Part shown: one piece after another, positions 18,605-61,759 of the stretch
Numbering within the stretch: position 1 is the first letter of the stretch
Layout: every line of letters begins with the position of its first letter
Virus record (IMG/VR): IMGVR_UViG_3300036766_000988
Span: 124,001-188,000 of that record
Length of the DNA stretch: 64,000 nucleotides
Source: a virus
Direction: 5' to 3' (one strand)
Program-made: the position numbers and the translations under genes
Notes under the pieces: model-generated
Database searches by the model: none
The model's input: only the letters and a program-made list of their open reading frames with translations
Told to the model about the DNA's origin: nothing

Positions 18605-18634
18605 GTGCTACGCCGGGCAGGTCTCTTCGATCAA
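18605..18634 (-). promoter_or_regulatory. TTGATC/TAGCAC promoter, 18-bp spacer
   Basis: A divergent member of the class. It overlaps the last codon of the CheY-like gene and ends 4 nt before the ATG at 18600. Confidence 0.55.
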
Positions 18635-18970
18635 CCGGCGAAGATCGTCCGGCCGCATCGGTTTCAGGAACACCTTGGTGGCCCCACAGGCGGTCCCGAT
18701 TCGGAAGACCTCCATGTTCCCCGAAATGAGCACCACGGGGATCTCGGGGTATCGAGCCCGCACGATCTCACAGAACTCGTCGCCGTCCATCCTGGGCATT
18801 TCGAGGTCCGACAGGATGAGGTCCGGCCTGAAGCCCCCTTCGAGAAGCGGTAACGCCTCCCCAGGGCACATGCACAGGGTGGAGTCGCAGTTCAGCATCG
18901 AGAGCATCCGGCCGTACGCGGAACGTATCTGCCGATCGTCTTCGACGACGAGAACCTTGGGAGCTGCCAT
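18608..18970 (-). CDS. single-domain response regulator (CheY-like receiver)
   Basis: 120 aa, one receiver domain and nothing else. All hallmark residues are present: acidic pair D11/D12 (VLVVEDD), phosphoacceptor D55 (LILSDLEMP), S83 (VVLISGN) and K103 (KVFLKPM). It should accept a phosphoryl group from a histidine kinase or small donor. No kinase gene is near, so it may tap host signalling. The ATG at 18970 begins the domain exactly; the longer frame upstream is not domain-like. Confidence 0.9.
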   Translation of the reverse strand: MAAPKVLVVEDDRQIRSAYGRMLSMLNCDSTLCMCPGEALPLLEGGFRPDLILSDLEMPRMDGDEFCEIVRARYPEIPVVLISGNMEVFRIGTACGATKVFLKPMRPDDLRRLIEETCPA

Positions 18971-18995
18971 GGGGGCCTTCTTGGGGGTGAGGGGT

Positions 18996-19451
18996 TCAGG
19001 CGGTGTGGCGGGCGAAGTCGAGCTTCTTCGAGGTGAGCGCCGCCGCAGCCAGCTCGGCCGCGTTGGGGGCACCAGCCGCCACAGCTTCGAGGACGGCTTC
19101 GAAGAGCTTGTCTTCGAGCCCGTGGGCGGCATCGAAGTCGCCAGCACAGGCCATGATCTCGGCGACCTTCTGGGTCACGTCCTTGACCGTCAGGCTGAGA
19201 TGGGCGGCGAGGTACCACTGGCCCTTGTCGAACTTGATGAGCCCGCCCTTGCGGAGGCTCTGAAGGGCGCGGTCGACGACGCGCTCGACGGGCAGCCCGT
19301 GATCGCCATCGACGAAGCGGGTCGTGAAGCCGCACACCACGACGAAGTGGCCCGACGTGCGACCCTGGGTCGGGTTCTTGAGGTACTCCAAGATCTTCGT
19401 CTTGGTGGTCTCGACCGCGAGCTTCTCGGTGCTGCCTTCGGGGGTCTTCAT
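18996..19451 (-). CDS. winged-helix-like protein, 151 aa
   Basis: The N-terminal half (TKILEYLKNP...VERVVDRALQSLRKGGLIKFDKGQWYL) has the helix, helix, wing order of a small DNA-binding domain. The C-terminal half is Ala-rich and helical. A CCCAGGAGACCCCC site precedes the ATG at 19451, although an in-frame ATG at 19493 lies 6 nt after the -10; both starts are possible. It lies next to the CheY-like gene, so a two-gene regulatory pair is possible. Confidence 0.65.
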   Translation of the reverse strand: MKTPEGSTEKLAVETTKTKILEYLKNPTQGRTSGHFVVVCGFTTRFVDGDHGLPVERVVDRALQSLRKGGLIKFDKGQWYLAAHLSLTVKDVTQKVAEIMACAGDFDAAHGLEDKLFEAVLEAVAAGAPNAAELAAAALTSKKLDFARHTA

Positions 19452-19499
19452 GGGGGTCTCCTGGGGGACGTGAAAGACGGGGAGAGCCCCCATCTAGCA

Positions 19500-19528
19500 G
19501 TACTACGCCGTGGGGGCCCTTGGTTCAG
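19500..19528 (-). promoter_or_regulatory. CTGAAC/TAGTAC promoter
   Basis: 17-bp spacer ending GGCG. It leaves a leader of about 40 nt with a strong ribosome site for the winged-helix gene. Confidence 0.7.
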
Positions 19529-19534
19529 CAGCTT

Positions 19535-19876
19535 CTAGAAGCTGGGATCGCGGTAGGCCGAGTACTCGCCGAGCGAGAGGAAGCCGCTGCGCTTGTTGCC
19601 CTTCGAGACGTAACGGCCGTTCTTGCGGCGCGTGAAGACGCGGACGGCGCCCTCGGGGTCGGCGACGAACAGGTAGCGCTGCTGCTCCGAGAAGATCGAG
19701 CCCGATGCCAAGCGGCTCTTGGCATCGCGTGTGGTGACCTCGTGGCCGCTCTTCGAGACGGCGACGACCGTCACGGCGTAGCGGTCACTGCCGACCTGGT
19801 AGGAGGCGGGCAGCCCGACGACGGGGACGACGGGGGTTTCTTCGGACGAGAGATTCGAGGCGGTCGAGGTGGGCAT
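19535..19876 (-). CDS. hypothetical protein, 113 aa
   Basis: Not recognised. A beta-rich middle (DRYAVTVVAVSKSGHEVTTR; RYLFVADPEGAVRVF) resembles a small SH3-like fold. The ATG at 19876 is 4 nt past the -10; the frame upstream of it lies in the promoter. Confidence 0.65.
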   Translation of the reverse strand: MPTSTASNLSSEETPVVPVVGLPASYQVGSDRYAVTVVAVSKSGHEVTTRDAKSRLASGSIFSEQQRYLFVADPEGAVRVFTRRKNGRYVSKGNKRSGFLSLGEYSAYRDPSF

Positions 19877-19880
19877 GAGG

Positions 19881-19909
19881 CTACTACGCTCCTTGAAGAT
19901 TTGGTTCAA
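19881..19909 (-). promoter_or_regulatory. TTGAAC/TAGTAG promoter
   Basis: 17-bp spacer; overlaps the end of the upstream gene (stop 19906). ATG 4 nt downstream. Confidence 0.7.
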
Positions 19910-20187
19910 CCCTGGATCGGATCCCGCGTGTAGGTCGCCAGGATCTCGCCCGTCCGCTGGTCCTTGATTCGAGCCGTCAGGATGTGGGTCAGCCCGATGT
20001 GGCTGTTGACGCCCCCTGGGGAGGTCGAGGCCTCGTACCCAAGAGCGTACTTCTTGAGGTTCTCGGTCGTGGCCTTGCCGTCAGCCGGGATCAGGCCCCG
20101 CTTGCGCATCCTCCACTCGGAGGGAGTCCAGTGCCCACGATCCGTGGTGACCTCGACGACGAACGGGATGAGTCGGCTGTGTCCCAT
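19906..20187 (-). CDS. hypothetical protein, 93 aa
   Basis: Not recognised. Begins MGHSRLIPFVVEVTTDRGHW, strand-rich, ending EILATYTRDPIQG. One gene per promoter, as in its neighbours. Confidence 0.7.
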   Translation of the reverse strand: MGHSRLIPFVVEVTTDRGHWTPSEWRMRKRGLIPADGKATTENLKKYALGYEASTSPGGVNSHIGLTHILTARIKDQRTGEILATYTRDPIQG

Positions 20188-20191
20188 GAAG

Positions 20192-20221
20192 TTACTACGC
20201 CGTCGATCCCTTTGGGTTCAG
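20192..20221 (-). promoter_or_regulatory. CTGAAC/TAGTAA promoter, 18-bp spacer
   Basis: The upstream gene's TGA is part of CTGAAC. ATG 4 nt past the -10. Confidence 0.7.
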
Positions 20222-20517
20222 CCGAGAAGATGCAGCACTTCTCGGACGTCGCTGTCGGTCAGCCCACAGGACTCTCCCTCCGCGTCCGCCTTGCAGACGA
20301 AGAAAGTACCCACGATGTGGGTATCGCCGACCACCCGGTTGAACGGCAGCCGTTGGAGGAGCCCTTCCTCGTTGCAGAAGAGGTCGAACCGGCCCAGCCG
20401 GACCAGCTCGATCAAGCCGCCCACGACCGCCTGCATCCCTTCCAAGGACGACGGAATCTCCTGGATCATGGGAAATCCGCCCGGCTTGCAGATGACGACC
20501 TGCATGGTTTTCGGCAT
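20218..20517 (-). CDS. DUF3846-like protein, 99 aa
   Basis: Reads MQVVICKPGGFPMIQEI..LEGMQAVVGGLIELVR..FDLFCNEEGLLQRLPFNRVV..IVGTFFVCK, the DUF3846 pattern (a small alpha/beta domain common in phages and mobile elements, role unknown). The ATG at 20517 has a GGGAG site; the frame upstream belongs to the adjacent gene. It shares a transcript with the DUF4314-like gene. Confidence 0.8.
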   Translation of the reverse strand: MPKTMQVVICKPGGFPMIQEIPSSLEGMQAVVGGLIELVRLGRFDLFCNEEGLLQRLPFNRVVGDTHIVGTFFVCKADAEGESCGLTDSDVREVLHLLG

Positions 20518-20528
20518 GAAAGTCTCCC

Positions 20529-20732
20529 TCAGATCTTTCGGATGCGGTCCGGCGGACAGACGACCATCAGGGTGCGGCCGTTGTCCCACAGGACATCGAT
20601 TTGGGTGAAGTTGTCGCCGGGCCCGAGCCGCACAGGTTCGACGTGACGAACCGTGCCCTTGGTACCCGGCGCAATCGGATTGGGGTCGTCGCTCATGCGG
20701 ATCATCTCGATCCGGTCACCGGTGGCGAACAT
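20529..20732 (-). CDS. DUF4314-like protein, 67 aa
   Basis: GDRIEMIRMSDDPNPIAPGT, then GTVRHV..and IDVLWDNGRTLMVVCPPD. This is the short beta-barrel domain DUF4314, often found beside DUF3846 in phages, as here. The TGATG junction with the upstream small gene suggests coupled translation. Confidence 0.8.
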   Translation of the reverse strand: MFATGDRIEMIRMSDDPNPIAPGTKGTVRHVEPVRLGPGDNFTQIDVLWDNGRTLMVVCPPDRIRKI

Positions 20733-20893
20733 CACTCCGCCCCCATGTAGGTGTAGGCGAAGAGCGCACGACGAACCTCTGCCACAGCCGCCTTCTCCTC
20801 GTTCGCACGAGCCACCTTGTCCGCCGCCGGAGCGGGGACAACGACGAACCGGATGACGACAGGGGTAACAGGGGTGAGGACCATCGAAACCAT
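20732..20893 (-). CDS. small protein, 53 aa
   Basis: MVSMVLTPVTPVVIRFVVVP, then a charged helix KVARANEEKAAVAEVRRALF. A short hydrophobic beta-type head, not a clear membrane helix. It starts 4 nt after a CTGAAC/TAGTAG promoter and is followed by the DUF4314 and DUF3846-like genes in one unit. Not recognised. Confidence 0.7.
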   Translation of the reverse strand: MVSMVLTPVTPVVIRFVVVPAPAADKVARANEEKAAVAEVRRALFAYTYMGAE

Positions 20894-20897
20894 ACAG

Positions 20898-20926
20898 CTA
20901 CTACACCTCGGGATCCCTTAGTTCAG
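20898..20926 (-). promoter_or_regulatory. CTGAAC/TAGTAG promoter
   Basis: 17-bp spacer ending GGTG; drives the three-gene unit 20893-20218. Confidence 0.75.
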
Positions 20927-20946
20927 CCAGGATTCGTTCTTGGGTG

Positions 20947-21246
20947 TTACTTGATCAGCTCGACGAAGTCCTCGAAGTAGATGATGACCTCGTGCTTCCC
21001 TTCGGCGTGACCGTGCTCCCAGGCCAGCTCGAAACAGCGCTGTGCCTTCGGGTTTCCGGTGACCCCGTGCTCCTCGAAGAGATCTTGCTTGAATTGCTCG
21101 CGGAGCTGCTGCACCTCGTCCCGGTAGGCCTTCTTGAGGGCCTCTTCCTGGGCGTTGATCTTGGTGGGCCAGGGGCTCTTGGGGGCATAGCAGCCCTGCT
21201 TCAACCTCTCCAACACGGTACGGGTATCCACGATGGTTTTGGGCAT
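20947..21246 (-). CDS. hypothetical helical protein, 99 aa
   Basis: Not recognised. A long charged helix (AQEEALKKAYRDEVQQLREQ) followed by CFELAWEHGHAEGKHEVIIYF. It has its own promoter 4 nt before the ATG. Confidence 0.7.
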   Translation of the reverse strand: MPKTIVDTRTVLERLKQGCYAPKSPWPTKINAQEEALKKAYRDEVQQLREQFKQDLFEEHGVTGNPKAQRCFELAWEHGHAEGKHEVIIYFEDFVELIK

Positions 21247-21250
21247 GCTG

Positions 21251-21279
21251 CTACTACGCCGCCAAGAGGCTGCGTTCAG
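21251..21279 (-). promoter_or_regulatory. CTGAAC/TAGTAG promoter
   Basis: 17-bp spacer ending GGCG; CTGAAC contains the TGA stop of the 21276 gene. Confidence 0.75.
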
Positions 21280-21608
21280 CGAGCTTCGGGAATGTCGTTG
21301 AGGTCTGCCTCGAACCAGTAGCCGCCCGTCCCCGCCCAGCGAACGCTCGGGTTCGTCAGGGGCACCTTGGTGACGATGAAGTGGTACGGAGGCTCCGTCG
21401 CCTGCTCGTGTTTGGTATCCGTCGAACCAGGGAGGATGTGGTCGACTTTGACCCGGTAGGTACGAGCGGCGACGCGATCCTTCATCTGGGGATGCGTCGT
21501 TCGAAGGTGCGTACCCTTCGGGATCGTCACCGTGTCGCCTCGCTTGACGGGCAGATCCGCGTCCTCGTGGAAGCCGACGTACTTCGGGGTGTTAACAGAA
21601 GGGGCCAT
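21276..21608 (-). CDS. hypothetical beta-rich protein, 110 aa
   Basis: Not recognised. DLPVKRGDTVTIPKGTHLRT and TYRVKVDHILPG suggest an SH3-like barrel; ends GGYWFEADLNDIPEAR. Its -35 is TTCAAC rather than CTGAAC. Confidence 0.7.
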   Translation of the reverse strand: MAPSVNTPKYVGFHEDADLPVKRGDTVTIPKGTHLRTTHPQMKDRVAARTYRVKVDHILPGSTDTKHEQATEPPYHFIVTKVPLTNPSVRWAGTGGYWFEADLNDIPEAR

Positions 21609-21612
21609 GAAA

Positions 21613-21641
21613 GTACTAGGGTGTTGTATATACTTGTTGAA
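21613..21641 (-). promoter_or_regulatory. TTCAAC/TAGTAC promoter
   Basis: 17-bp spacer. It lies at the edge of a gene-free stretch (21609-21817) that is AT-richer than its surroundings and contains two copies of TCCGGAGCGG (21650 and 21780 regions). Confidence 0.65.
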
Positions 21642-21817
21642 CCAAAAAACGACTCCGGAGCGGCTATTTTTATTCAGGGTCTAGGCATCAAGGTAGGAAA
21701 TCTCACTTGATTTGAGCCGGGTTCTAGGACTTAGACCGAATAGGTCACCCCGTTAGTTCTGGGTTATTATGAAAAACGGTTCCGGAGCGGGGATTTGATC
21801 TTGTCCCTAAGTACGAC

Positions 21818-22087
21818 CTACTGATGCGTGCCCAGCTCGACGCCAGCCAGGAAGGCCCAGATGAGCTGCCACAGAGCCAGATCGGTGACTTCCTGGAAGT
21901 TCCCAAGCCAGGCATCGGCGAATCCATCCCGGCGACGAACCTGAAGGTCGTACCCACGCCCTCTTTGGATGAGGGTAAACGTCCAGCCTTCGACGACGAA
22001 CTTGGAAGTGCCGCCTTCCTGGTACCGGACCCAGAAGTCGTGAACCTCCGCAGGAACTGTTTCAGGCGTCAGCGTGGTCCTGGGCAT
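21818..22087 (-). CDS. hypothetical protein, 89 aa
   Basis: Not recognised. VPAEVHDFWVRYQEGGTSKF and VEGWTFTLIQRGRGYDLQVR give an alpha/beta body; C-terminal hydrophobic helix (LALWQLIWAFLAGVELG). The ATG at 22087 overlaps the upstream TGA. Confidence 0.7.
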   Translation of the reverse strand: MPRTTLTPETVPAEVHDFWVRYQEGGTSKFVVEGWTFTLIQRGRGYDLQVRRRDGFADAWLGNFQEVTDLALWQLIWAFLAGVELGTHQ

Positions 22088-22467
22088 CAGGTGTCGAGCC
22101 CCCAGTAGATCTGGAAGGTCTCCAGCTCTTCGAGCAGCTCCACCAGCCGGGTGTTGAGCCTCACGGCCTTGCGGGCTTGGTCGAGACGCGAGAGGGTTGT
22201 GCCGCACTGGATGCGGAGATTCACGGGCAGCAGGTGCTGCTCCACGGACGAAATCTCCGCCCTGATGAGGGCCTCGTCGCGATGGGCCTGGGGGAGCTTG
22301 GCGAGCTGCACGCATTCGAGCCCCACGCACCAGATGGTACCCACGGGATGATCGTCGCGAACGACGAGCTGCTCGACCGTTGCGTCTTCGGCATCGACCG
22401 CGATGATTTTCCCCAGGGTCTTTTGCCCGTGGAGACGTCCAAACAGCACCCGATCACCCTTCAACAT
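22087..22467 (-). CDS. KOW/SH3-like paralogue A, 126 aa
   Basis: Begins MLKGDRVLFGRLHGQKTLGK and has HPVGTIWCV. The N-terminal 55 aa closely resemble the gene at 23725-24174 (MVRGDKVYFGRAHGEKTLGE; FAVGTIWRV), so the two are paralogues with different helical C-terminal halves. The GD-V-FGR pattern suggests a small barrel that may bind nucleic acid. Function unknown. Confidence 0.75.
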   Translation of the reverse strand: MLKGDRVLFGRLHGQKTLGKIIAVDAEDATVEQLVVRDDHPVGTIWCVGLECVQLAKLPQAHRDEALIRAEISSVEQHLLPVNLRIQCGTTLSRLDQARKAVRLNTRLVELLEELETFQIYWGLDT

Positions 22468-22478
22468 GGCCTCTACCC

Positions 22479-22727
22479 TTACTTGGGGTCCCGCAGGATG
22501 GCCCCGAGATCTTGCATGGCCCCATCACCCGAGAGCCCGCTCTTGACGGGCTCCCACTCGTCGTAGAGGGCCTGGATGCGAGCGAGCTTCTGCTCGGCCT
22601 CAGCCAGCCGTTCCTTCGTGCCCTCGAAGCACGCCTCATCCGTGTGGGGCTCGGCCCACTGGCTCATCAAGACAAGGGCCTTGCAGTGCGGACAGAGGAC
22701 GAAGCCGGGGGGCAGCGGTTCAGCCAT
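22479..22727 (-). CDS. zinc-finger-like helical protein, 82 aa
   Basis: FVLCPHCKALVLMSQWAEPHTDEACF provides C-x2-C and H/C ligands for one zinc; a helical region (RLAEAEQKLARIQALYDEWE) follows. Not recognised. The frame upstream of 22727 is shadow. Confidence 0.7.
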   Translation of the reverse strand: MAEPLPPGFVLCPHCKALVLMSQWAEPHTDEACFEGTKERLAEAEQKLARIQALYDEWEPVKSGLSGDGAMQDLGAILRDPK

Positions 22728-22732
22728 GGGGA

Positions 22733-23140
22733 TTATACCTTCCGGCGTTTCGAGACGGGTTTCTTGGGCATCGGGGGCGGGTTGCAGCCATCGCAGTCGA
22801 TGCTGAGCGCCCCCACGGGGTGGTCGGGATTGTCCGATGCGACCTCGGCGAACCAGAAGCGCCCGTGGGGGCACTGGTCACCCGCCTTCGTGGGAGGCGG
22901 CGGCTTGTAGTCGACGATGGGAAGCAGATCGAGGGCCATGTTCCACCGGATGATGTCCTGGGTCAGCGAGTTCGCGTTGTGGATCAGGTGGTTGTTGAGC
23001 GGCTTGCCCTCGGCGATTTCCTTGAGGGCAACCTCGACCTCATACGCCAGGCTGCGGAGCCCGTTCTCTAGATGGAGGCGGGCCGAGTCCTGCGCGATCG
23101 TGAGGCGGCTGTGGAGTAGACGCTTGGCTGTGGAGTCCAT
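22733..23140 (-). CDS. hypothetical protein, 135 aa
   Basis: Not recognised. Long N-terminal helices (ARLHLENGLRSLAYEVEVAL), then a C-terminal CPHGRFW and CDGCNPPP that may bind a metal, and a basic end. ATG at 23140, 4 nt past the -10. Confidence 0.7.
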   Translation of the reverse strand: MDSTAKRLLHSRLTIAQDSARLHLENGLRSLAYEVEVALKEIAEGKPLNNHLIHNANSLTQDIIRWNMALDLLPIVDYKPPPPTKAGDQCPHGRFWFAEVASDNPDHPVGALSIDCDGCNPPPMPKKPVSKRRKV

Positions 23141-23144
23141 GGCG

Positions 23145-23173
23145 GTACTACGTTGCCAGAAGCCAGGGTTCAG
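23145..23173 (-). promoter_or_regulatory. CTGAAC/TAGTAC promoter
   Basis: 17-bp spacer; CTGAAC contains the TGA stop of the HNH gene. Confidence 0.75.
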
Positions 23174-23679
23174 CGAGCGTTCAACTCTTCTTGGGTAGGT
23201 GGTAGGAGATACGGACGAAGCTCGTGTTTGTCGTGTCGCTTGATCCATTGACAGTTCATACAGAGGGTCTGGAATCCTACTGGAAACCCTTGCCGCACAA
23301 GCCATCGGTAGAAGTTGATGCCCCCAAGGGTTCGGCGATGATCCGCACCACCGCTGTCTACGTGGTCGATGGAGAGCGCACGCATGTCAGGGAAACCACA
23401 CCCAACGCATATGACTCCATAGTGCGCAAAGACCCTCTCTTTGGCGCGGTAGTACGAGCTTCGACACGCAACGAGATGCCTGTCGTGGTACCGCTCGCGT
23501 TCGGTCGCGTAATGACCTGTTTTGGCTTTACGAGCCGCCTGGCGACGCTTGTTGTGGCATGTCTTACACTCGGTTTGAAGGCGGTCCCTAGTGGTCCGGT
23601 GGGGATGAAACTCGCTTACAGCGATTGGGCCCCGTTCTGGACCACACATAGCGCATCGTTTCAGTCGTTCTTCACTCAT
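23170..23679 (-). CDS. HNH endonuclease
   Basis: 169 aa. Zinc pairs CAMCG and CKTCHNKRR, then CVGCG...LSIDHVDSGG...LCMNCQ, an HNH core with both Cys pairs of the zinc-bound subgroup. Probably a free-standing homing nuclease inserted in the promoter-gene array. Its promoter lies inside a perfect 13-bp inverted repeat, listed separately. Confidence 0.85.
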   Translation of the reverse strand: MSEERLKRCAMCGPERGPIAVSEFHPHRTTRDRLQTECKTCHNKRRQAARKAKTGHYATERERYHDRHLVACRSSYYRAKERVFAHYGVICVGCGFPDMRALSIDHVDSGGADHRRTLGGINFYRWLVRQGFPVGFQTLCMNCQWIKRHDKHELRPYLLPPTQEELNAR

Positions 23680-23686
23680 GCTTTAC

Positions 23687-23728
23687 GTTCGCCATCGAAA
23701 AACTATTCGATGGCGAACGGGTGTTCAG
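23687..23728 (-). promoter_or_regulatory. HNH promoter flanked by a perfect 13-bp inverted repeat
   Basis: CTGAAC (23728-23723), 17 bp, TAGTTT (23705-23700). The arms GTTCGCCATCGAA and TTCGATGGCGAAC (23687-23699 and 23706-23718) enclose the -10 exactly as a 6-nt centre. This looks like an operator for a dimeric repressor. A start site about 7 nt past the -10 would leave only half the repeat in RNA. Confidence 0.7.
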
Positions 23729-24174
23729 AACGAGCCAGCAAGCCGGTATGCCTCTTCCTCGTCCACCCGACGGCCAATCTCGACGAACAATGTGTTGAGC
23801 TTGGCACGAAGAGCGACCCCATGACGACGAGCAGCCGAGGCTGAGATTTCCCCATCCTGGTGTAAATTCTCGGGACTGAGGTGGCTGTAGACCCCCAGGA
23901 TGTCCTTCAGGATGGCAGCCTCGGGCCTGCGGACCGCCGGGGCCTGAGGAGCCTGCGGGAGGCTCTTGGGCTCGCTGGGGACCGACACGGCACCCGTCAC
24001 CGGGCTCACGAGCGAGAGAGCCACGCGCCAGATGGTGCCCACCGCGAAGTTCTTCATGGTGCCGCGGCTTTCGAGCTGCTTCACCTTGACGGACTTGCCG
24101 TTGACCTTGACCACCTCGCCCAGAGTCTTCTCACCGTGGGCGCGACCGAAGTAGACTTTGTCGCCACGTACCAT
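23725..24174 (-). CDS. KOW/SH3-like paralogue B, 149 aa
   Basis: Shares its first 55 aa pattern with the 22087-22467 product (MVRGDKVYFGRAHGEKTLGE; AVGTIWRV). A Pro/Ala linker follows, then a helical C-terminal half (HGVALRAKLNTLFVEIGRRV). Leaderless start 4 nt past its promoter. Confidence 0.75.
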   Translation of the reverse strand: MVRGDKVYFGRAHGEKTLGEVVKVNGKSVKVKQLESRGTMKNFAVGTIWRVALSLVSPVTGAVSVPSEPKSLPQAPQAPAVRRPEAAILKDILGVYSHLSPENLHQDGEISASAARRHGVALRAKLNTLFVEIGRRVDEEEAYRLAGSF

Positions 24175-24178
24175 GTAG

Positions 24179-24207
24179 CTACTACGCCCGTGCCAGCCTC
24201 AGTTCAG
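24179..24207 (-). promoter_or_regulatory. CTGAAC/TAGTAG promoter
   Basis: 17-bp spacer ending GGCG; reads into paralogue B. Confidence 0.75.
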
Positions 24208-24270
24208 CAAGTTTTCGGACAGCGCCCCAGAGCTGTTCCCAGCGAATCTGTGATGTGCTACCCCCAACTT

Positions 24271-24388: not shown

Positions 24389-24395
24389 TTTTGAA

Positions 24396-24563: not shown

Positions 24564-24567
24564 CCAG

Positions 24568-24596
24568 CTACTACGCTGGCAGGAGTCCCAGCTCAG
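24568..24596 (-). promoter_or_regulatory. CTGAGC/TAGTAG promoter
   Basis: 17-bp spacer ending AGCG; CTGA contains the upstream TGA stop. Confidence 0.7.
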
Positions 24597-25306: not shown

Positions 25307-25311
25307 GGTGG

Positions 25312-25340
25312 GTACTACACCTCAGAGGCCCCTGGTTCAG
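25312..25340 (-). promoter_or_regulatory. CTGAAC/TAGTAC promoter
   Basis: 17-bp spacer ending GGTG; -10 ends 5 nt before the ATG at 25306. Confidence 0.75.
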
Positions 25341-25341
25341 C

Positions 25342-25818: not shown

Positions 25819-25820
25819 GG

Positions 25821-26033: not shown

Positions 26034-26036
26034 GGC

Positions 26037-26483: not shown

Positions 26484-26524
26484 GGTCTTCCTAGACATTA
26501 CACCTCTACTCCTCGTGTCAGCCG

Positions 26525-26926
26525 TTACCAGCTTGAGACGGCCCAGTTGAGCAGCGCACGGAGCTTCTCGGGAGCCACCAACACACGGTCACCGCCGTAG
26601 ACCTGAATCGCAAGATGAAGCCCCGACCTGGGAGCATTCACCGTGGTCCGGTACACGAACACTGTCGGGGACTCGCCCAGGAGGTCGTAGGTGGCGTCCG
26701 GCTTCTCCCACCAGAGAAGTAGGCGCTCCACGAGCGCCACGGGTAGCCTGACGTGGTGATGATCGACAGCGATGTGCAGCACCTTCTCGTCCGTCCCCCA
26801 CTCGATGGAGGCCGACTCGCCGGTCTCGAAACAGCAGGCCGAGCCCAAAGGCTGCTGGATCTCGGGGGTCCCCACCGGCTTCGGAGCCGTGTACCCACCC
26901 AAAATCGTGTGGTTGAGGTCGTTCAT
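26525..26926 (-). CDS. hypothetical protein, 133 aa
   Basis: Not recognised. Strand-rich (EKVLHIAVDHHHVRLPVALV; GLHLAIQVYGGDRVLV) with a C-terminal helix. Leaderless start. Confidence 0.7.
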   Translation of the reverse strand: MNDLNHTILGGYTAPKPVGTPEIQQPLGSACCFETGESASIEWGTDEKVLHIAVDHHHVRLPVALVERLLLWWEKPDATYDLLGESPTVFVYRTTVNAPRSGLHLAIQVYGGDRVLVAPEKLRALLNWAVSSW

Positions 26927-26930
26927 GACA

Positions 26931-26959
26931 GTACTACGCCTCCAAAAGTAGGAGTTCAG
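26931..26959 (-). promoter_or_regulatory. CTGAAC/TAGTAC promoter
   Basis: 17-bp spacer ending GGCG; CTGA is the stop of the next upstream gene. Confidence 0.75.
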
Positions 26960-27153
26960 CTAGGGAACGCCGCCGCCCGCTCCAAGAGCTGGAGAGCTTC
27001 CTCGCATTCGGCCGCCTTCGCCAGCAAAAGCTGGTCAACCTTGCTGCCGACCCCACGAGGAGCCGCTTCGCGGTAGATCTTGGCGTAGCTGCGGAGTAGG
27101 TCCAACGCAGCGTTGGGGCGAACGACGGGGGCAGCAACGGGCTTGGTGTCCAT
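26956..27153 (-). CDS. hypothetical helical protein, 65 aa
   Basis: Not recognised. Almost entirely helical (ALDLLRSYAKIYREAA; QLLLAKAAECEEALQLLERA). Own promoter with -35 CTGAAT. Confidence 0.7.
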   Translation of the reverse strand: MDTKPVAAPVVRPNAALDLLRSYAKIYREAAPRGVGSKVDQLLLAKAAECEEALQLLERAAAFPS

Positions 27154-27157
27154 GAGG

Positions 27158-27186
27158 GTACTACGCCGCCACTTCTTGGGATTCAG
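27158..27186 (-). promoter_or_regulatory. CTGAAT/TAGTAC promoter
   Basis: 17-bp spacer ending GGCG, ATG 4 nt downstream; the TGA stop of the 27183 gene lies in the -35. Confidence 0.7.
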
Positions 27187-27383
27187 CCCGACTTCTTGCG
27201 CTCCCCAGGGAAGTGCCAGCTATCGAGGAGCTTCTGAGGCACCGGCTGGTCGCCAAACATCCGAAGGATCTCGGCCCTGGCCCGGTGACACCGAGCCTCC
27301 TCCCGGTAATACGCCTGACGCTCCCAGTCGGAGAAGATGGCAGCCGCTTCGGCACAGGTCTTGGGTAGGGACGGAGTGCCCAT
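27183..27383 (-). CDS. hypothetical helical protein, 66 aa
   Basis: Not recognised. EAAAIFSDWERQAYYREEAR, then RAEILRMFGDQPVP. Overlaps the upstream gene by 1 nt, so co-translated with it. Confidence 0.65.
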   Translation of the reverse strand: MGTPSLPKTCAEAAAIFSDWERQAYYREEARCHRARAEILRMFGDQPVPQKLLDSWHFPGERKKSG

Positions 27384-27568
27384 CAGGTGGCCTCTTGAGG
27401 GTTGGGGAGGTTGCTCACGATGTGCGAGACCAACCAGTCGGCCGCGTCGTACATCCCGAGCCGGGACGCCACGAGCCGCAAATCCTCCAACTGGTCGTTC
27501 AGCGAATCCTGACGTTGCGATTGCCGAGGCAGAGCGCGGACAAGAGCGAGAAAGTCTTCGCGGGCCAT
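27383..27568 (-). CDS. hypothetical protein, 61 aa
   Basis: Not recognised. Helical; QLEDLRLVASRLGMYDAADW. TAAATG junction with the 52-aa gene upstream. Part of a three-gene unit from the promoter at 27732-27760. Confidence 0.65.
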   Translation of the reverse strand: MAREDFLALVRALPRQSQRQDSLNDQLEDLRLVASRLGMYDAADWLVSHIVSNLPNPQEAT

Positions 27569-27727
27569 TTACGCCGCCTTCCTGAGCGCATGGTAGCGCT
27601 GCTGGATCTGGCCGTTCCGGTGCGTCATGCGGGGACTCACCGACCCCAACATGTCGAGCAGGTCTTCACGGGGCCAGCTCCGTAGCTCGGGGAACTCGGC
27701 AAGTAGACGATCGAGGGCGGTGTCCAT
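27569..27727 (-). CDS. hypothetical helical protein, 52 aa
   Basis: MDTALDRLLAEFPELRSWPR, then PRMTHRNGQIQQRYHALRKA, a basic helix that could contact nucleic acid. It starts 4 nt past its promoter. Not recognised. Confidence 0.7.
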   Translation of the reverse strand: MDTALDRLLAEFPELRSWPREDLLDMLGSVSPRMTHRNGQIQQRYHALRKAA

Positions 27728-27731
27728 GAAA

Positions 27732-27760
27732 CTACTACGCCGCCTGGAAGCCCGGTTCAG
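27732..27760 (-). promoter_or_regulatory. CTGAAC/TAGTAG promoter (best consensus copy)
   Basis: CTGAAC, 17 bp ending GGCG, TAGTAG, then 4 nt to ATG. CTGA is the stop of the 27757 gene. Confidence 0.8.
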
Positions 27761-28200
27761 CGGGCCTTCGCGAGCTTGACGAAGAGCTTGAGCGCCTCGT
27801 CGAACGGAAGGGTGTTGAGAACCACCATCTGGGGATCGAACGGGACAGAGTGTCCGGGCAGGTTCGCCTGGAAAAGCTTTCCGTCACGAACGAAGACGAG
27901 CTTCTTCTTGAAGAGCCTCTTGAGGTCGCGCTCCGCCAGCCAGGTGTCCAGAAGCTCACCGAAAAGAAGCTCGGGGGACTGGGGGAGCGGCCCGAAGGCG
28001 TGATCGACCGGAGGCAGCGTCTTGCAGTAGACCCTGATCTCGTCGGCAAGACTTCCAGGACGAATCAGGTCCGCCCCACCGTGACCGTCGTTCTCGACCG
28101 TCCCGCGCTTCACCCCATCAACCCAGACATCCGCTGCAAAAGCAGACGTCTCGTGGGAAAGTCGCGCGTTGTAGGAGATGCGACGAAGTTCGATCTTCAT
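27757..28200 (-). CDS. hypothetical protein, 147 aa
   Basis: Not recognised. MKIELRRISYNARLSHETSA then ADVWVDGVKRGTVENDGHGG, a strand-rich head often seen in phage proteins that read ..v.VdGv..G.. .GhGG. A helical LGELLDTWLAERDLKRLF-type middle and LPFDEALKLFVKLA end. Start fixed by the promoter. Confidence 0.75.
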   Translation of the reverse strand: MKIELRRISYNARLSHETSAFAADVWVDGVKRGTVENDGHGGADLIRPGSLADEIRVYCKTLPPVDHAFGPLPQSPELLFGELLDTWLAERDLKRLFKKKLVFVRDGKLFQANLPGHSVPFDPQMVVLNTLPFDEALKLFVKLAKAR

Positions 28201-28204
28201 AGGG

Positions 28205-28233
28205 GTACTACGTCTTGGGTACTGCCGGTTCAG
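28205..28233 (-). promoter_or_regulatory. CTGAAC/TAGTAC promoter
   Basis: 17-bp spacer. Here the TAG of the -10 is also the in-frame stop of the upstream 28208-28675 frame. Confidence 0.75.
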
Positions 28234-28414
28234 CCAAAATGTTGACCAGTAACGTAGGGTCGCCCGCCTGGGTCCGATGATGCCTGTACTCCCCCGCAGC
28301 CACGGAACGCGTCGAGCCAGACTCCTGCCACCCACAACAGCAGATGGCCGTCCAGCAACGTTCCGCAAGCGACCGCTCGCCGTTTGATTCCAGCGACACC
28401 AACCGGTGCTTCAC
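28208..28414 (-). CDS. alternative internal gene, 68 aa, GTG start
   Basis: A GTG at 28414 overlaps the TGA of the 43-aa gene (GTGA) and opens VKHRLVSLESNGERSLAERC, with CWTAICCCGW downstream. If the three-gene reading is correct this is the third gene. Same frame as the 155-codon ORF. Not recognised. Confidence 0.4.
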   Translation of the reverse strand: MKHRLVSLESNGERSLAERCWTAICCCGWQESGSTRSVAAGEYRHHRTQAGDPTLLVNILAEPAVPKT

Positions 28415-28675
28415 GCGATGGCCTGAGCCCAGAGGTCGAGCTTGAGTACCAGATCCAAGGTCGCCTGCTCGAACGTGTCCCCCGAGCCCGTGATGTTCGA
28501 CGCTTTGCAGCGGCTCCCACGAAGCTTCACCGGAATACTCATTGTGCAGCCCCAGGCGGCTCACCCGGAACTCGGGCTCACCCAACGGGCCAGGCACCGG
28601 CAGAAGCCGAGGATGAAGACGTACGGCTTCCTCGATCTTGAGGAACAGCGGTTCCAGTTCAGCAGCGGTGGCCAT
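28208..28675 (-). CDS. hypothetical 155-codon frame with an out-of-phase middle
   Basis: Open from a leaderless ATG to a stop at the next -10. The first 50 codons (AAELEPLFLKIEEAVRLHPR) and last 68 (VKHRLVSLESNGERSLAERC onward) look genuine. Between them, codons are poor in third-position G/C and the product is Gly/His-rich, while another frame (28542-28411) is strongly coding. It may be one long protein, two coupled proteins plus an inserted one, or a single protein broken by two compensating indels. Confidence 0.5.
   Translation of the reverse strand: MATAAELEPLFLKIEEAVRLHPRLLPVPGPLGEPEFRVSRLGLHNEYSGEASWEPLQSVEHHGLGGHVRAGDLGSGTQARPLGSGHRVKHRLVSLESNGERSLAERCWTAICCCGWQESGSTRSVAAGEYRHHRTQAGDPTLLVNILAEPAVPKT
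28411..28542 (-). CDS. small protein within the 28208-28675 frame, 43 aa
   Basis: MSIPVKLRGSRCKASNITGS then DTFEQATLDLVLKLDLWAQA. About 80 percent of its codons end in G/C against under half for the overlapping frame, so this frame is the one under coding selection in this stretch. Ends GTGA-coupled to the next start. Not recognised. Confidence 0.55.
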   Translation of the reverse strand: MSIPVKLRGSRCKASNITGSGDTFEQATLDLVLKLDLWAQAIA

Positions 28676-28679
28676 GCAG

Positions 28680-28708
28680 CTACTACGTCACCATGACCCA
28701 CAGTTCAG
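28680..28708 (-). promoter_or_regulatory. CTGAAC/TAGTAG promoter
   Basis: 17-bp spacer, 4 nt to the ATG at 28675. Confidence 0.75.
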
Positions 28709-28731
28709 CTCGTCCAGCAAGGGTGGAATCC

Positions 28732-28818
28732 CTACCGCCGGGCGGACAACCAGATGAGGCCGACCGCCAGAAGCCCCACCAGCAAGAGCCCGAAGTCGAC
28801 CGCGTCCCAGATGCCCAT
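28732..28818 (-). CDS. small membrane protein, 28 aa
   Basis: MGIWDAVDFGLLLVGLLAVG then LIWLSARR: one membrane helix with a basic C-terminal flank, so probably N-out/C-in. GGTGTAGGGC (28833-28824) ends 5 nt before the ATG, which makes this very short frame credible. Possible holin-like or signalling peptide; unproven. Confidence 0.6.
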   Translation of the reverse strand: MGIWDAVDFGLLLVGLLAVGLIWLSARR

Positions 28819-28826
28819 TCTGGGCC

Positions 28827-29078
28827 CTACACCGAAGGGGAGAAGTACCTGGAAGCCCGGAGCTGCTTGGCGGCTTCCTCGACCGTGTACCGCACCATGA
28901 GGGTCTGCTCCCGCCTGGCTTGCCGCTTCCGCTCCTGTCGATTCAGCTCAAGCTTCACGAGACGCTGAGTCCAATACCCGATCCGGGCAAGATAGCGATC
29001 CCCCAGCCACCGACGATTCGCCCGAGCTGCTTCTTGGCTCAGCCGCTGCTGCTTTCGCTCTCGTCGGGTCTGCTTCAC
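28827..29078 (-). CDS. small basic helical protein, 83 aa, GTG start
   Basis: VKQTRRERKQQRLSQEAARA then RLVKLELNRQERKRQARREQ: Arg/Gln-rich helices, likely nucleic-acid binding. The GTG overlaps the TGA of the upstream gene (ACGTGAAG). The longer frame to 29183 is shadow. Not recognised. Confidence 0.65.
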   Translation of the reverse strand: MKQTRRERKQQRLSQEAARANRRWLGDRYLARIGYWTQRLVKLELNRQERKRQARREQTLMVRYTVEEAAKQLRASRYFSPSV

Positions 29079-29407
29079 GTCTTGTCTTCCTGAGCGTCCC
29101 CTGGCAGGTCTTCGAGCGGCGTGCGGGTCCCGTCCTCGGCTTCGTACTCGGGCCTGGTGAGCTTCGAGCCCGGCCCAAAACACTTGCTCACGTCGGGATG
29201 ATGCACGATGCGGGTCAGCGGCTTCGCCGTCCTATCGTGATCGACCCGAGCGTACCCCGCCTTCTTCTCGGCCTCGTACTCGGACAACAGCTTCAGGGGG
29301 ACGCCCGGCCAATCACGGCGAAAGCATTCCTCACATCGGGCGCTCTCCCCCATGTGCGAATAGCCCCCGTTCGGCAGCTCCGTCCCGCAGTCTGCACAGT
29401 CTTCCAT
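29075..29407 (-). CDS. zinc-ribbon protein, 110 aa
   Basis: MEDCADCGTELPNGGYSHMG then ARCEECFRRDWP: a compact C4 zinc ribbon at the N-terminus, then a charged body. GGTGTACTGG (29428-29419) and GGAGGGG precede the ATG. It is divergent from the ribbon-helix-helix gene across a palindrome. Confidence 0.7.
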   Translation of the reverse strand: MEDCADCGTELPNGGYSHMGESARCEECFRRDWPGVPLKLLSEYEAEKKAGYARVDHDRTAKPLTRIVHHPDVSKCFGPGSKLTRPEYEAEDGTRTPLEDLPGDAQEDKT

Positions 29408-29429
29408 ACGGTACCCCTCCAGTACACCG

Positions 29430-29470
29430 ACTTTCGTTGCACGAAAGTAACATCCGTTGTACGAATGTAA
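29430..29470. promoter_or_regulatory. operator-like palindrome ACTTTCGT/ACGAAAGT and half copy
   Basis: Perfect 8-bp arms with a 3-nt centre at 29430-29448, followed by a degenerate second copy to 29470. It lies between divergent genes, one of which encodes a ribbon-helix-helix protein. CGTTGCACGAAAGT recurs exactly at 31156-31169 beside the second such gene. Confidence 0.7.
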
Positions 29471-29471
29471 C

Positions 29472-29777
29472 GTGGCCCTGGGACGACCTCGCCGAAACCC
29501 CTCCCAAGCAGCTACCGAGTTCGTTGCTTTCCGGCTGACCAAGGACGAGCTGCGGGCCCTCGATGGCTTCGTGGAGCTGAAGAACCAGGAGCTTGCCGCT
29601 TTGGGTAGCTCGATGACCCGAGCTTCGTTCCTGCGAGCCCTGGTGACCCGCAACATCCAGCCCCAGCCGAAGCCAGCCAAACGAAAGCCCGCCCCCGCCC
29701 CAGAGCCGGAGCCCGAGCCCGAAGAAGAAGCTCCCGAACCCGACACCAGCGACATCTTCGAGAACTCACCGCTCTAA
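29472..29777 (+). CDS. ribbon-helix-helix type regulator, 101 aa
   Basis: After a basic head (GRPRRNPSQA) comes TEFVAFRLTKDELRALDGFV, a strand plus helix, then SMTRASFLRALV, the second helix of an Arc/MetJ-like fold. The last 40 aa are Pro/Glu-rich and probably disordered. GTG at 29472 chosen; TTG at 29457 is in frame but inside the palindrome. Likely represses its own and the divergent promoter through the adjacent operator. Confidence 0.7.
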   Translation: MALGRPRRNPSQAATEFVAFRLTKDELRALDGFVELKNQELAALGSSMTRASFLRALVTRNIQPQPKPAKRKPAPAPEPEPEPEEEAPEPDTSDIFENSPL

Positions 29778-29843
29778 ATGGCTTCGACCCCGGCCTGCTC
29801 TCCTCACCGAGGATAGAAGCAGGACAGGGTCGAGGAAGAGCGG
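29769..29843 (-). ncRNA. 75-nt four-stem hairpin behind its own promoter
   Basis: Stacked arms, outside in: CCGCTCT/AGAGCGG (29769-29775/29837-29843), TCGACCC/GGGTCGA (29784-29790/29827-29833), CCTGCT/AGCAGG (29794-29799/29818-29823), CCTC/GAGG. A TTGAAC/TAGTAG promoter at 29893-29865 starts transcription about 15 nt upstream, and no start codon follows. Candidate small RNA, antisense to the end of the regulator gene. It could also be a bidirectional terminator, though no U-run is present. Confidence 0.5.
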
Positions 29844-29864
29844 AAAGAAACTGGCCCCTCAGAG

Positions 29865-29893
29865 CTACTACGCAGGGGCCCGCGGGAGTTCAA
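29865..29893 (-). promoter_or_regulatory. TTGAAC/TAGTAG promoter without a downstream start codon
   Basis: 17-bp spacer ending TGCG. Unlike the others it faces a structured, apparently untranslated segment. Confidence 0.7.
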
Positions 29894-29896
29894 CCG

Positions 29897-30130
29897 CTAG
29901 CGAGCAACCCACATGTGTGCGTCGCGATCGTAGGTGGCGAGCCCGTGAAGGACCCGAACCACACGGCGTTCCGACGCCTGGAAGCGCTCGGCGGCAGCCC
30001 AGAGGACGCGAGCCCTGGGGGCAGCGGCGGTGAAGTTGGCCGCACAAAGACGACGTGCCGCCAGGTCACGACGAAGAGCCGAGTGGAGCAGCATGTTCCG
30101 ACGGGCGTTGAGAGTCTTGATCGTGGACAT
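29897..30130 (-). CDS. small basic protein, 77 aa
   Basis: MSTIKTLNARRNMLLHSALR then RRLCAANFTAAAPRARVLWA: Arg/Ala-rich and helical. A CAGGAGA site precedes the ATG at 30130 and the promoter leaves a leader of about 17 nt. Not recognised. Confidence 0.65.
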   Translation of the reverse strand: MSTIKTLNARRNMLLHSALRRDLAARRLCAANFTAAAPRARVLWAAAERFQASERRVVRVLHGLATYDRDAHMWVAR

Positions 30131-30147
30131 GAAAGGGTCTCCTGGGC

Positions 30148-30176
30148 CTACTACGCCTCTCATTCAACAAGGTCAG
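30148..30176 (-). promoter_or_regulatory. CTGACC/TAGTAG promoter
   Basis: 17-bp spacer. From here to 30375 I see no gene, only GC-rich short inverted repeats such as CCCGA/TCGGG. Confidence 0.65.
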
Positions 30177-30375
30177 CCCCAAAAAACCTGGGCCGAAACC
30201 CCGACAAGACTACCCGACGAAGTTCGGGTCAATCCCATCGAAGCCTCGGCCCGCTCCCAAGGGAGCCGCCTCGGCAGCACAACCGGCCTCCCAATGAATG
30301 AAAGAGGCAGTTGCGAGGGGCTAGCTGTTCGCCCCTTACCGGAAAAGGTAGCCGGGTCCGCCAGAATCTTGAGCC

Positions 30376-30693
30376 TTAGTAGGCGCCGAGCTTGTCCCAC
30401 CAGACGCGGGGCTGCTTGCGGGACTTGCGGGGAGCGCGGATGGCCACCGGGGGCGGCGAGGTGCCCTGAACCGCCAGCACCTTGCCGGACAGCACGGTCT
30501 GCTGACGGAACGCTTCGAGGTGCTTGCACGAGCGGTTCATCGGATGGTTCTTCTGGAACCGCCAGCTTGGACACGTGCAGTAGATGTTGCCGTCCTTGCC
30601 CAGACGAACCTCGTGAACGTGCAGCGGGTTCGACTTCGAGGCGAAGGTGGCGAGGAGCGTGGGGCGAAAGACTGGAGTCGTCGTCTTGTCCAT
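30376..30693 (-). CDS. SWIM zinc-finger protein, 105 aa
   Basis: GNIYCTCPSWRFQKNH...RSCKHLEAF gives C-x-C-x(n)-C-x-H, the SWIM signature, at about residues 38-60. The rest is basic and Pro-rich. SWIM fingers bind DNA or proteins; the transposase at 42109 has one too. Leaderless start. Confidence 0.8.
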   Translation of the reverse strand: MDKTTTPVFRPTLLATFASKSNPLHVHEVRLGKDGNIYCTCPSWRFQKNHPMNRSCKHLEAFRQQTVLSGKVLAVQGTSPPPVAIRAPRKSRKQPRVWWDKLGAY

Positions 30694-30697
30694 ACAC

Positions 30698-30726
30698 CTA
30701 CTAGGTCGCTTGACCCCCGCGTTCAG
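30698..30726 (-). promoter_or_regulatory. CTGAAC/TAGTAG promoter
   Basis: 17-bp spacer; ATG 4 nt downstream. Confidence 0.75.
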
Positions 30727-30763
30727 CAGAAAATCGTAACTTTCATCTTAGTCCGTGCGGTCA

Positions 30764-30891
30764 CGGTGTACTGCGGGCCGCCCATGGCCCAAAAGGAAAA
30801 CGCCAGGAAGTACCCGACCACACCTGTGCCCGCAGGATGCGATCCGGTCTTCCTGGCGAAGTTGTTCGAGCCCAGGCCCGTGAGCAGGCGA
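30764..30891 (+). other. near-copy of the SNF2 helicase promoter with a gene start
   Basis: The 23 bases at 30764-30786 match 47173-47195 at 21 positions, including GGTGTA and the ATG. From that ATG (30784) about 36 good codons follow (MAQKENARKY, then CDPVFLAKLFEPRP). The frame then runs antisense through the regulator gene to 31269, so a complete product is doubtful. Possibly the remnant of a gene displaced by recombination. Confidence 0.4.
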
Positions 30892-31089
30892 TTACTCGAC
30901 CTCGCTCTGCATGTCCGCCAGAGCCGCCTTGAGGCGAGCCGGGACGTCCTTGCCCGCGGTGGACATGAGAAGGGCGGTCATGGTGATGCCCTCGATCTTG
31001 GCGAGCAGCCGCACCTGACGGGCGAGCTTCTCGGGAAGCGAGATCGAGAGGATGGTGACCTTGGAAGGGGAGCCGGTAGAGGTGTCCAT
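30892..31089 (-). CDS. ribbon-helix-helix type regulator, 65 aa
   Basis: KVTILSISLPEKLARQVRLL is the strand and first helix, EGITMTALLMSTAG the second, of an Arc/CopG-like fold. Usual family length. Leaderless start 4 nt past the promoter. The shared 14-mer CGTTGCACGAAAGT lies about 65 nt upstream, so this protein and the 29472 product may act on the same operators. Confidence 0.7.
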   Translation of the reverse strand: MDTSTGSPSKVTILSISLPEKLARQVRLLAKIEGITMTALLMSTAGKDVPARLKAALADMQSEVE

Positions 31090-31093
31090 GGCC

Positions 31094-31122
31094 CTACTAG
31101 GGCTCTGAACCCGAAGGTTCAG
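31094..31122 (-). promoter_or_regulatory. CTGAAC/TAGTAG promoter
   Basis: 17-bp spacer; ends 4 nt before the regulator ATG at 31089. Confidence 0.75.
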
Positions 31123-31140
31123 CCTCAAATCGACCCTGTT

Positions 31141-31169
31141 ACTTTCGTGACATTACGTTGCACGAAAGT
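31141..31169. promoter_or_regulatory. second operator-like site ACTTTCGT...ACGAAAGT
   Basis: 8-bp arms separated by 13 nt; the right half contains CGTTGCACGAAAGT, identical to 29435-29448. A further inverted repeat ATGGGCCG/CGGCCCAT (31220-31227/31243-31250) lies in the same gene-free stretch. Confidence 0.6.
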
Positions 31170-31316
31170 CGCTAAACTCCGGGCCCCGTTGGCACGGCGA
31201 TTTCCCAACGTTTTGGCACATGGGCCGAACCATTATGACGCACGGCCCATTCGGGCGCAGAGCCCTTAGCCCTCTAATTCCTGGGGGGTCCGGAGGCCGC
31301 ATAAGACTTTCGTCGG

Positions 31317-31955
31317 TCACTCCGAGGCAGCCCGTAGCTTCGCTCGCCGGGCGTAGATCTTCTGCCAACCGGGAGGCAGAGCTGCCCAAGCCTGACGCTC
31401 TTCGGATTCTGCCTGAGCCTGGGACTGCTTCTGAACCCGTAGTCGGTTTTGAGCGGCGACCAGCTTGGCCCTAGTCTCTTCCGAGACTACCCGTCCCATG
31501 CTGGCAGCTTCGCGTCGCTTTCGACCTTCTTCGGATAACCTGAACCTCTGTCGCGGTCTCGACAGCTTCGCTCGGGTTTCAGCGGACGGTCGGAGTCCCT
31601 GGTGAGCCTTCGACATCTTGGCTCGGGCTTCTGGGGTGAGCTTCCAACCGGCCATGGCCGACCATCCCCCTGGGCTCATGTTGAACCCGAGAGCAGGGTC
31701 AGTAGAGCCGAAGTGGGCAACCCACCACAGCTCGGCCTCGTTGGCTTCCTCCAACGTCTCGACCCTCTCTAGGACTTCGGCGGTGAAAGTCTCTGGACCG
31801 AACTCTCGGATCGCCTAGTGGAAGCGTCCTCGACTCCCTCGCTTGAGAGCATCCCCCTTATGCCGAGTCCACCGCTTCTTGGTTGTCTTGGAGGTCTGAC
31901 CAACGTAGCGACGCTGGCTAGCCTGGTGGACGTGGCAGTAGATCTCGAACGGCAT
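31317..31955 (-). pseudogene. GIY-YIG endonuclease gene interrupted by an amber codon
   Basis: MPFEIYCHVHQASQRRYVGQ opens a GIY-YIG domain; ...GRGRFH-type end meets TAG at 31817-31815. The same frame continues AIREFGPETFTAEVLERVET, the expected next element, then NUMOD3-like repeats (PEARAKMSKAHQGLRPSAET) to 31317. So a single nonsense codon interrupts an otherwise intact 212-codon gene. GGTGTAGAAC (31970-31961) ends 5 nt before the ATG. Confidence 0.8.
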
Positions 31956-31975
31956 CCCCCGTTCTACACCGCTCC

Positions 31976-32305
31976 CTAGTAGCCGAAGTCGTACGCCACG
32001 ATCCGGCCTGCACGGGTCAGCCCTACTTGCTGGCAGTCGACGTAGTCCGCCCACCTGGGTTGCGCCTCGTCAGGAACGCTGGTGTCGACCCGCTCCATGA
32101 CGAGCCAGCCGTTCTTCAACAACCTGCACCTAGCGTACAGGACCCCGTTCTGGTCCGGCCCACGACCCCACCGCCTTGAGAGCCGGGCTTCGCGGCTGTT
32201 GTCCGCCAGGCCGTAGTCATTGAGCGGCACCTTGATGACCCACCGGCCGTCTGCGTAACAGGCTCGGCTGTAACCACTGCCCAACAAGGTTCCCCTGGGT
32301 TCCAT
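31976..32305 (-). CDS. miniature kinase-fold protein A, 109 aa
   Basis: Order of elements: Gly loop LGSGYSRACYADG, Lys strand WVIKVPLND, Glu helix NSREARLSRRW, hinge-like GWLVMERV, and at the very end GRIVAYDFGY, a DFG motif. No HRD catalytic loop and no C-lobe are present, and the protein stops just after DFG. Paralogue of 32853-33245. Probably catalytically dead or a nucleotide-binding mini-domain. Confidence 0.65.
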   Translation of the reverse strand: MEPRGTLLGSGYSRACYADGRWVIKVPLNDYGLADNSREARLSRRWGRGPDQNGVLYARCRLLKNGWLVMERVDTSVPDEAQPRWADYVDCQQVGLTRAGRIVAYDFGY

Positions 32306-32309
32306 CCTG

Positions 32310-32338
32310 GGACTACTGCGCGAACTTGGGAAGTTCAA
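32310..32338 (-). promoter_or_regulatory. TTGAAC/TAGTCC promoter
   Basis: 17-bp spacer; 4 nt to the ATG at 32305. Confidence 0.65.
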
Positions 32339-61745: not shown

Positions 61746-61759
61746 CGTGCCCTCCATCG

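Follow-up and report, generated by a model that had tools for sequence, protein, structure and literature searches.

What places the same letters immediately before the start codons of so many leftward genes of a huge phage, and which enzyme would read them? The question is raised by positions 18605-32338 of a stretch of 64,000 nucleotides (the window), which comprises bases 124001-188000 of the IMG/VR virus record IMGVR_UViG_3300036766_000988 (G000; 252,183 bp). The initial annotation described this interval as an array of one-gene leaderless transcripts with promoters fused to the stop codon of the preceding gene. The analysis reported here defines a bipartite element, termed class A, which from its sequence looks like a transcription promoter and not a translation signal. 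Class A promoters probably direct (near-)leaderless messenger RNAs (mRNAs) by means of the host core RNA polymerase (RNAP) and a phage-encoded putative sigma factor, P0001, that resembles those of the extracytoplasmic function (ECF) type.

Form and Position of the Class A Motif

Reading of the minus strand, together with a weight matrix iterated over the whole record, gave the consensus GG[CT]TGAAC-N15-CGTAGTAS, also written GGCTGAAC-N15-CGTAGTAS (CTGAAC-17-TAGTAG in the notation of the initial annotation). At a score of at least 14 bits, 60 sites were found in G000 versus 0-3 in composition-matched sequence from a first-order Markov model, an enrichment over randomized sequence that bears out the earlier claim; the exact pattern TGAACN15-20GTAGTA occurs 28 times versus once for its reversed form. 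The sites cluster at 95-120 kb and 140-156 kb of G000, and a few lie elsewhere. The array in the interval is real, with 21 sites, all leftward, and the window holds two further strong sites outside it, 16569..16598 (4 nt to ATG) and one ending at 11931. The spacer had been given as 17-18 bp; it is 17 bp in 19 of the interval sites and 18 bp in the other two.

All class A sites located here by coordinates lie on the minus strand. A distance of exactly 4 nt between TAGTAN and the ATG had been proposed for every gene and is found at 17 of the 21 sites. In nine, the TGA of the -35 element doubles as the stop codon of the preceding called gene (19881..19909, 20192..20221, 21251..21279, 23145..23173, 24568..24596 with CTGAGC, 26931..26959, 27158..27186 with CTGAAT, 27732..27760, and 30698..30726), an overlap that had been noticed at the outset and that recurs in 17 copies throughout G000. 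The same 4 nt follow 18605..18634 (TTGATC-18-TAGCAC, ATG at 18600, 20.0 bits), 20898..20926 (32.5 bits), 21613..21641 (a weak copy with TTCAAC, 17.9 bits), 24179..24207, 28205..28233 (31.7 bits), 28680..28708, 31094..31122, and 32310..32338 (TTGAAC-17-TAGTCC, 19.5 bits). The exceptions are 25312..25340, with 5 nt; 19500..19528 and 30148..30176, which have long leaders carrying a Shine-Dalgarno (SD) sequence (CAGGAG for the start at 19451 and GGAGA within a leader of 17 nt); and 29865..29893 (28.7 bits), which precedes no open reading frame (ORF). Directly after this last site, a strong hairpin (29770-29866, minus strand, fold z -3.7) is a candidate small RNA or terminator.

Genes were called with a simple in-house caller which, for G000, gave a bonus to TAGTA ahead of a start. 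Because of this bonus, the ATG tests were repeated mechanically, independently of the caller: an ATG stands at +4/+5 in 35 of the 60 sites, against 2.4% expected (binomial p = 6e-41). The start codons at this position are ATG in 36 cases and GTG or TTG in none (p 0.002, given 17% GTG/TTG starts in G000). The base preceding the ATG is C in 30/38 sites versus 54% of all starts (p 6e-4), which matches the pyrimidine at -1 and purine at +1 that are usual for bacterial start sites. No SD sequence is present where the leader is about 4 nt long, its position being occupied by the -10 element, while an SD is found in 12 of the 13 copies with leaders of 14-39 nt, the P0001 gene being one of these.

The same observations bear on whether the motif might instead serve as a signal for translation, or be a tandem stop. 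TAGTAG does contain two stop codons, and the GGTG or GGAG letters that precede it are SD-like. However, the preceding gene often ends about 20 nt before TAGTAG, at the TGA within the -35, and the conserved -35 is too distant for contact with the ribosome. Moreover, the long-leader copies possess a separate SD, and the copy at 29893 has no ORF to serve. A translational or terminating function is thus highly improbable.

Where transcription would begin depends on how the -10 element is delimited. The A of the ATG is located 7 nt past the core CGTAGT, the usual distance from a -10 to a start site, and 5 nt past TAGTAG, which is slightly short. The earlier suggestion that the usual distance leads to this A holds for the former and fails for the latter; in our reading, the core is best taken as CGTAGT. 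The description as one-gene units applies to about a third of the cases. Counted up to the next promoter-like element (class A, or class B as described below) or strand switch, 18 units contain one gene, 12 contain two, 9 three, 6 four, and 7 are longer, so that many of the rest comprise two to four genes.

Diverged Class A Motifs in Related Phages

A search with P0002, a sigma-70 region 4 protein encoded at 61119..61757 of the window (minus strand; PF04545, E 3.9e-14), returned 22 related contigs, in which this protein is 60-70% identical. Six phages were compared (G000, G001, G003, G004, G005, and G008), and the motifs of the relatives were identified by position-specific k-mer counts upstream of starts that had been called without any TAGTA bonus. 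Four relatives (155-407 kb) have a diverged class A of their own at an equal distance before the ATG. In G005 it reads GGTTGATC-N16-TGTAGGA (97 sites, null 2), in G003 TTGAAC-N15/16-TGTACT (46 sites, null 5), and in G008 CTTAACT-N14-CCGTTCTA (8 sites, null 1). The version of G001, GGTTGATT-N16-TGTAGT, has 37 sites (null 3), many of them scattered and about 10 before an ATG. Among the 22 related contigs, the exact G000 motif has a single stray match, and its strict form was not seen in any other viral contig; for the strict form of G005, matches among 2.9 million contigs are limited to 4 related ones. One G005 match abutting a tRNA-Leu gene is probably due to chance, because its start would fall inside the tRNA.

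The remaining properties are repeated in these phages. An SD accompanies leaders of at least 10 nt in 5/5 cases in G005, 4/5 in G001, and 11/15 in G003, and the -35 is fused to a stop codon in 23, 4, and 4 copies in G005, G001, and G003, respectively. The base before the ATG is C in 54/64 sites of G005 versus 48% of all starts (p 1e-10) and in 18/18 of G003.

The distance to the ATG ranges from 4 to 7 nt, above all in G005, where 13 sites have 7 nt, and this spread would suit transcripts that begin a few nucleotides upstream of the ATG, or downstream of it in some genes. Such mRNAs would have leaders of 1-5 nt and would not be strictly leaderless. The C at -1 followed by A at +1 and the sharply peaked distance of 4 nt argue against this, and a leader of 1-5 nt would functionally be too small to hold an SD; displaced starts are rather unlikely. 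Dedicated promoters for (near-)leaderless transcripts, as first proposed, are the reading best supported computationally, by the SD pattern, the exclusive use of ATG, the C at -1, the copy without an ORF, and the relatives.

Candidate Readers of Class A

No recognisable match to beta or beta' subunits was obtained in the six phage records, in a search that detected 14/14 controls. A phage multisubunit RNAP was accordingly rejected as the reader of the motif, and the host core RNAP is therefore the likely enzyme. The proposed specificity factor is P0001 (S1; 11002..11874, minus strand), a putative diverged ECF-like sigma factor with a homologue in all six phages. Identity between the homologues is about 30-37%, and they were found only through the relatives of P0002; a single-sequence search with P0001 yielded nothing in viral contigs or phages. 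Homologues from four relatives match PF04542 (Sigma70_r2) at the same residues as P0001, with E 0.015-0.05, below the curated cut-off. In the C-terminus of P0001, a four-helix segment is predicted, which has no profile match for region 4. The top PDB neighbour of two AlphaFold models (pLDDT 67-68) is R. sphaeroides SigE, and the early ranks are mostly sigma factors.

The sequence ahead of the gene points in the same direction. In G000 it is preceded by a class A site of its own (11903..11931, 28.1 bits) with a 28-nt leader and the SD GAGAGGA, and in G005 by one in the leaderless position (TTGATC...TGTAGGTGGAATATG). Furthermore, the divergence of P0001 between phages parallels that of the class A letters, whereas P0002 and class B remain constant. 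Given these patterns of divergence and self-promotion, we lean towards P0001 as the protein that reads class A.

Promoters of ECF type have AAC in the -35 and CGT in the -10, 15-16 bp apart; that of Bacillus sigma-W is TGAAAC-N16-CGTA. The G000 motif has the same letters at this spacing, AAC-N15/16-CGTA, and the assignment of P0001 as a sigma factor is weak. Both points would agree with real, leaderless class A promoters that are read by an alternative (ECF-type) sigma factor of the host which the phage exploits. However, 257 Gb of bacterial and archaeal genomes contained only one match to the strict motif. This single match (Roseateles, L149) was rejected as a real site, being at chance level, with about 7 expected by estimate. 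In addition, relatives with P0001 homologues have other -35 and -10 letters (ATC or ATT in place of AAC, TGT in place of CGT), and the phage's own promoter lies upstream of the P0001 gene in two phages. It is unlikely that a host sigma factor is responsible.

Another phage protein could also be considered, namely P0002, a second sigma-like protein S2 (G000:94721-95485, minus strand), or a split sigma factor formed by P0001 and P0002. The sigma region 4 of P0002 is clear, and the S2 gene, separate in G000, adjoins that of the P0001 homologue in five relatives; S2 also aligns weakly with the 2.3/2.4-like segment of S1 (E 0.0023 for a single comparison). The ORF next to P0001 in the window, 10112-10726, was tried as the second sigma factor and discarded, as it is not homologous to S2. 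On the other hand, P0002 is conserved while the class A letters change, a pattern better suited to the universal class B, and we regard a reader other than P0001 alone among the phage proteins as quite unlikely.

Several findings weigh against the assignment of class A to P0001 and leaderless expression. The match of P0001 itself to PF04542 (E 0.0014, 18.8 bits) is below the curated cut-off of 24; its fold matches, with E about 0.5 from a model of pLDDT 68, are not significant; and no PDB entry matches it in sequence. Only two of the six phages have a class A promoter before the sigma gene. G004 encodes a P0001 homologue, and the two-block search gave no convincing class A there, only the letters of tRNA T-loops. 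Class A genes are seldom common to several phages, and in a comparison of the class A regulon between orthologues the pairs were too few and mostly not significant. Finally, translation of leaderless mRNAs requires a permissive host.

With P0001 as the favoured factor, expression would proceed as follows. The host core RNAP carrying P0001 would recognise class A and start transcription at the A of the ATG 4-5 nt downstream, or 1-2 nt from it, and ribosomes would bind the resulting mRNA at its 5' AUG. Start codons at a greater distance would be preceded by a leader with an SD. The -35 sits at the very end of the gene before it and in many copies includes that gene's TGA stop, and each related phage would have its own version of the promoter with its own diverged sigma factor. 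Class B would serve a different set of genes as a conserved single-element promoter.

The Class B Element

Class B, like the sigma-like gene and the relatives, was not covered by the initial annotation. The element, YGGTGTA, is located 9-11 nt before the start codon in all six phages (44, 55, 38, 27, 93, and 12 genes per phage). It has no -35, and some copies form divergent pairs, such as the GGTGTA at 44956..44961 (minus strand, 10 nt before its ATG) and that at 44994..44999 (plus strand, 9 nt before the ATG at 45009). In G000, G001, and G004, a copy stands 15-20 nt ahead of the tmRNA gene; class B is therefore not a ribosome signal. Genes that are reciprocal best hits between phages tend to keep the element (odds 9-51, p 0.02 to 4e-9). 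In form and spacing, it resembles the promoter tAATGTAtA of phiEco32 gp36, likewise a single element, with a start 6-8 nt downstream (PMC8948821). With a similar distance, class B transcripts would again begin at or next to the ATG.

For the clade as a whole, the balance is about even for a broader proposal: that these huge phages employ two phage-specific promoter codes set so that mRNAs start at the AUG, one conserved (class B) and one bipartite and fast-diverging (class A) that changes together with the phage sigma factor, giving each phage private leaderless sets of mostly accessory genes.

Gene Content of the Source Genome

G000 encodes a family A DNA polymerase, a DnaB-like helicase, a UvsX-like recombinase, RtcB, and endonuclease VII, beside many small proteins without assigned function. 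Megablast against 50,697 phage records revealed no close DNA relative; the nearest matches of the DNA polymerase and P0002 belong to the uncultured 485-kb phage LR745208. The single terminase family searched for gave no match, so that the grounds for the label "phage" are IMG/VR, the genes for replication, and the relatives. Nearly all of the 54 tRNAs and one tmRNA are within 62-88 kb (L012, L013), and the relatives have about 40-55 tRNAs each. EF-Tu and L7/L12 are represented by Pfam matches. An IF3 or ribosomal S1 domain that could promote leaderless initiation was not found, and a phage-carried IF3 or S1 was rejected as an aid to it.

A tRNA with the amber-reading anticodon CUA stands alone at L010:16908-16981 (G000:36908-36981, minus strand); a CUA tRNA is also present in G001 and G008, and in G005 an isolated UCA tRNA is preceded by promoter letters. 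In the window, a GIY-YIG/NUMOD3-like ORF (31317-31955, minus strand), with a class B GGTGTA (31965..31970, minus strand) 9 nt before it, is interrupted by a single in-frame TAG after ...RGRFH and is otherwise open to its end. It could be a broken gene or, given the CUA tRNA, a case of amber readthrough. A stand-alone response-regulator receiver domain is encoded at 18611-18970 (minus strand; PF00072, E 1.3e-18). The first 20 kb of G000 (1-20 kb) contain a run of large leftward genes with no PHROG match among those tested and no strong class A or B sites, and a further type of promoter may operate there.

Relation to Known Systems

In the phages phiEco32 (gp36) and 7-11 (gp47), a highly diverged phage sigma factor redirects the host RNAP, and the promoters differ between the relatives, that of phiEco32 being the single element already mentioned and that of 7-11 the bipartite GTAAtg-16-aCTA, with start sites 6-9 nt past the element (PMC8948821). 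Those phages have 6-8 promoters each, and the paper does not contain the word "leaderless" (PMC8948821), whereas here about 60-100 sites abut an ATG and two promoter classes exist side by side in one phage. The large Thermus phage phiYS40 has mostly leaderless middle and late mRNAs, in a known host in which IF2 was reported to be raised and IF3 lowered (PMC3594737). The jumbo phage AR9 is likewise giant, with phage-specific promoters genome-wide; unlike the present phages, which lack recognisable beta/beta', it has two multisubunit RNAPs of its own and untranslated regions of 26-491 nt (PMC5312081). Similar genome sizes, large tRNA sets, EF-Tu, and L7/L12 characterise the clades of huge phages surveyed by Al-Shayeb et al. 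(2020), in which numerous genes for translation were noted and possible rpS1 genes were connected with SD sites missing in some genomes (PMC7162821). That study also does not use the word "leaderless" (PMC7162821), and the phages described here differ in having no detected S1 or IF3 domain. No report of the present arrangement was found in the limited set of literature searched. The parts are of known kinds; what appears to be new is their combination and the way in which it has diversified across a clade.

Biological Significance

In bacteria, leaderless translation is commonly regarded as ancestral or as a minor route. The phage lineage described here appears to have built on it genome-wide, with the promoter letters repeatedly re-evolved and the distance to the AUG held fixed. 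The class A arrangement would explain why many genes in such genomes lack SD sites, and the motif would help gene finders to place true starts. The five phages offer a natural series of sigma-promoter pairs for studying the co-evolution of specificity. With some 40-55 tRNAs and a tmRNA in the clade, and EF-Tu and L7/L12 in G000, whether the host ribosome is adapted to leaderless mRNAs becomes a direct question.

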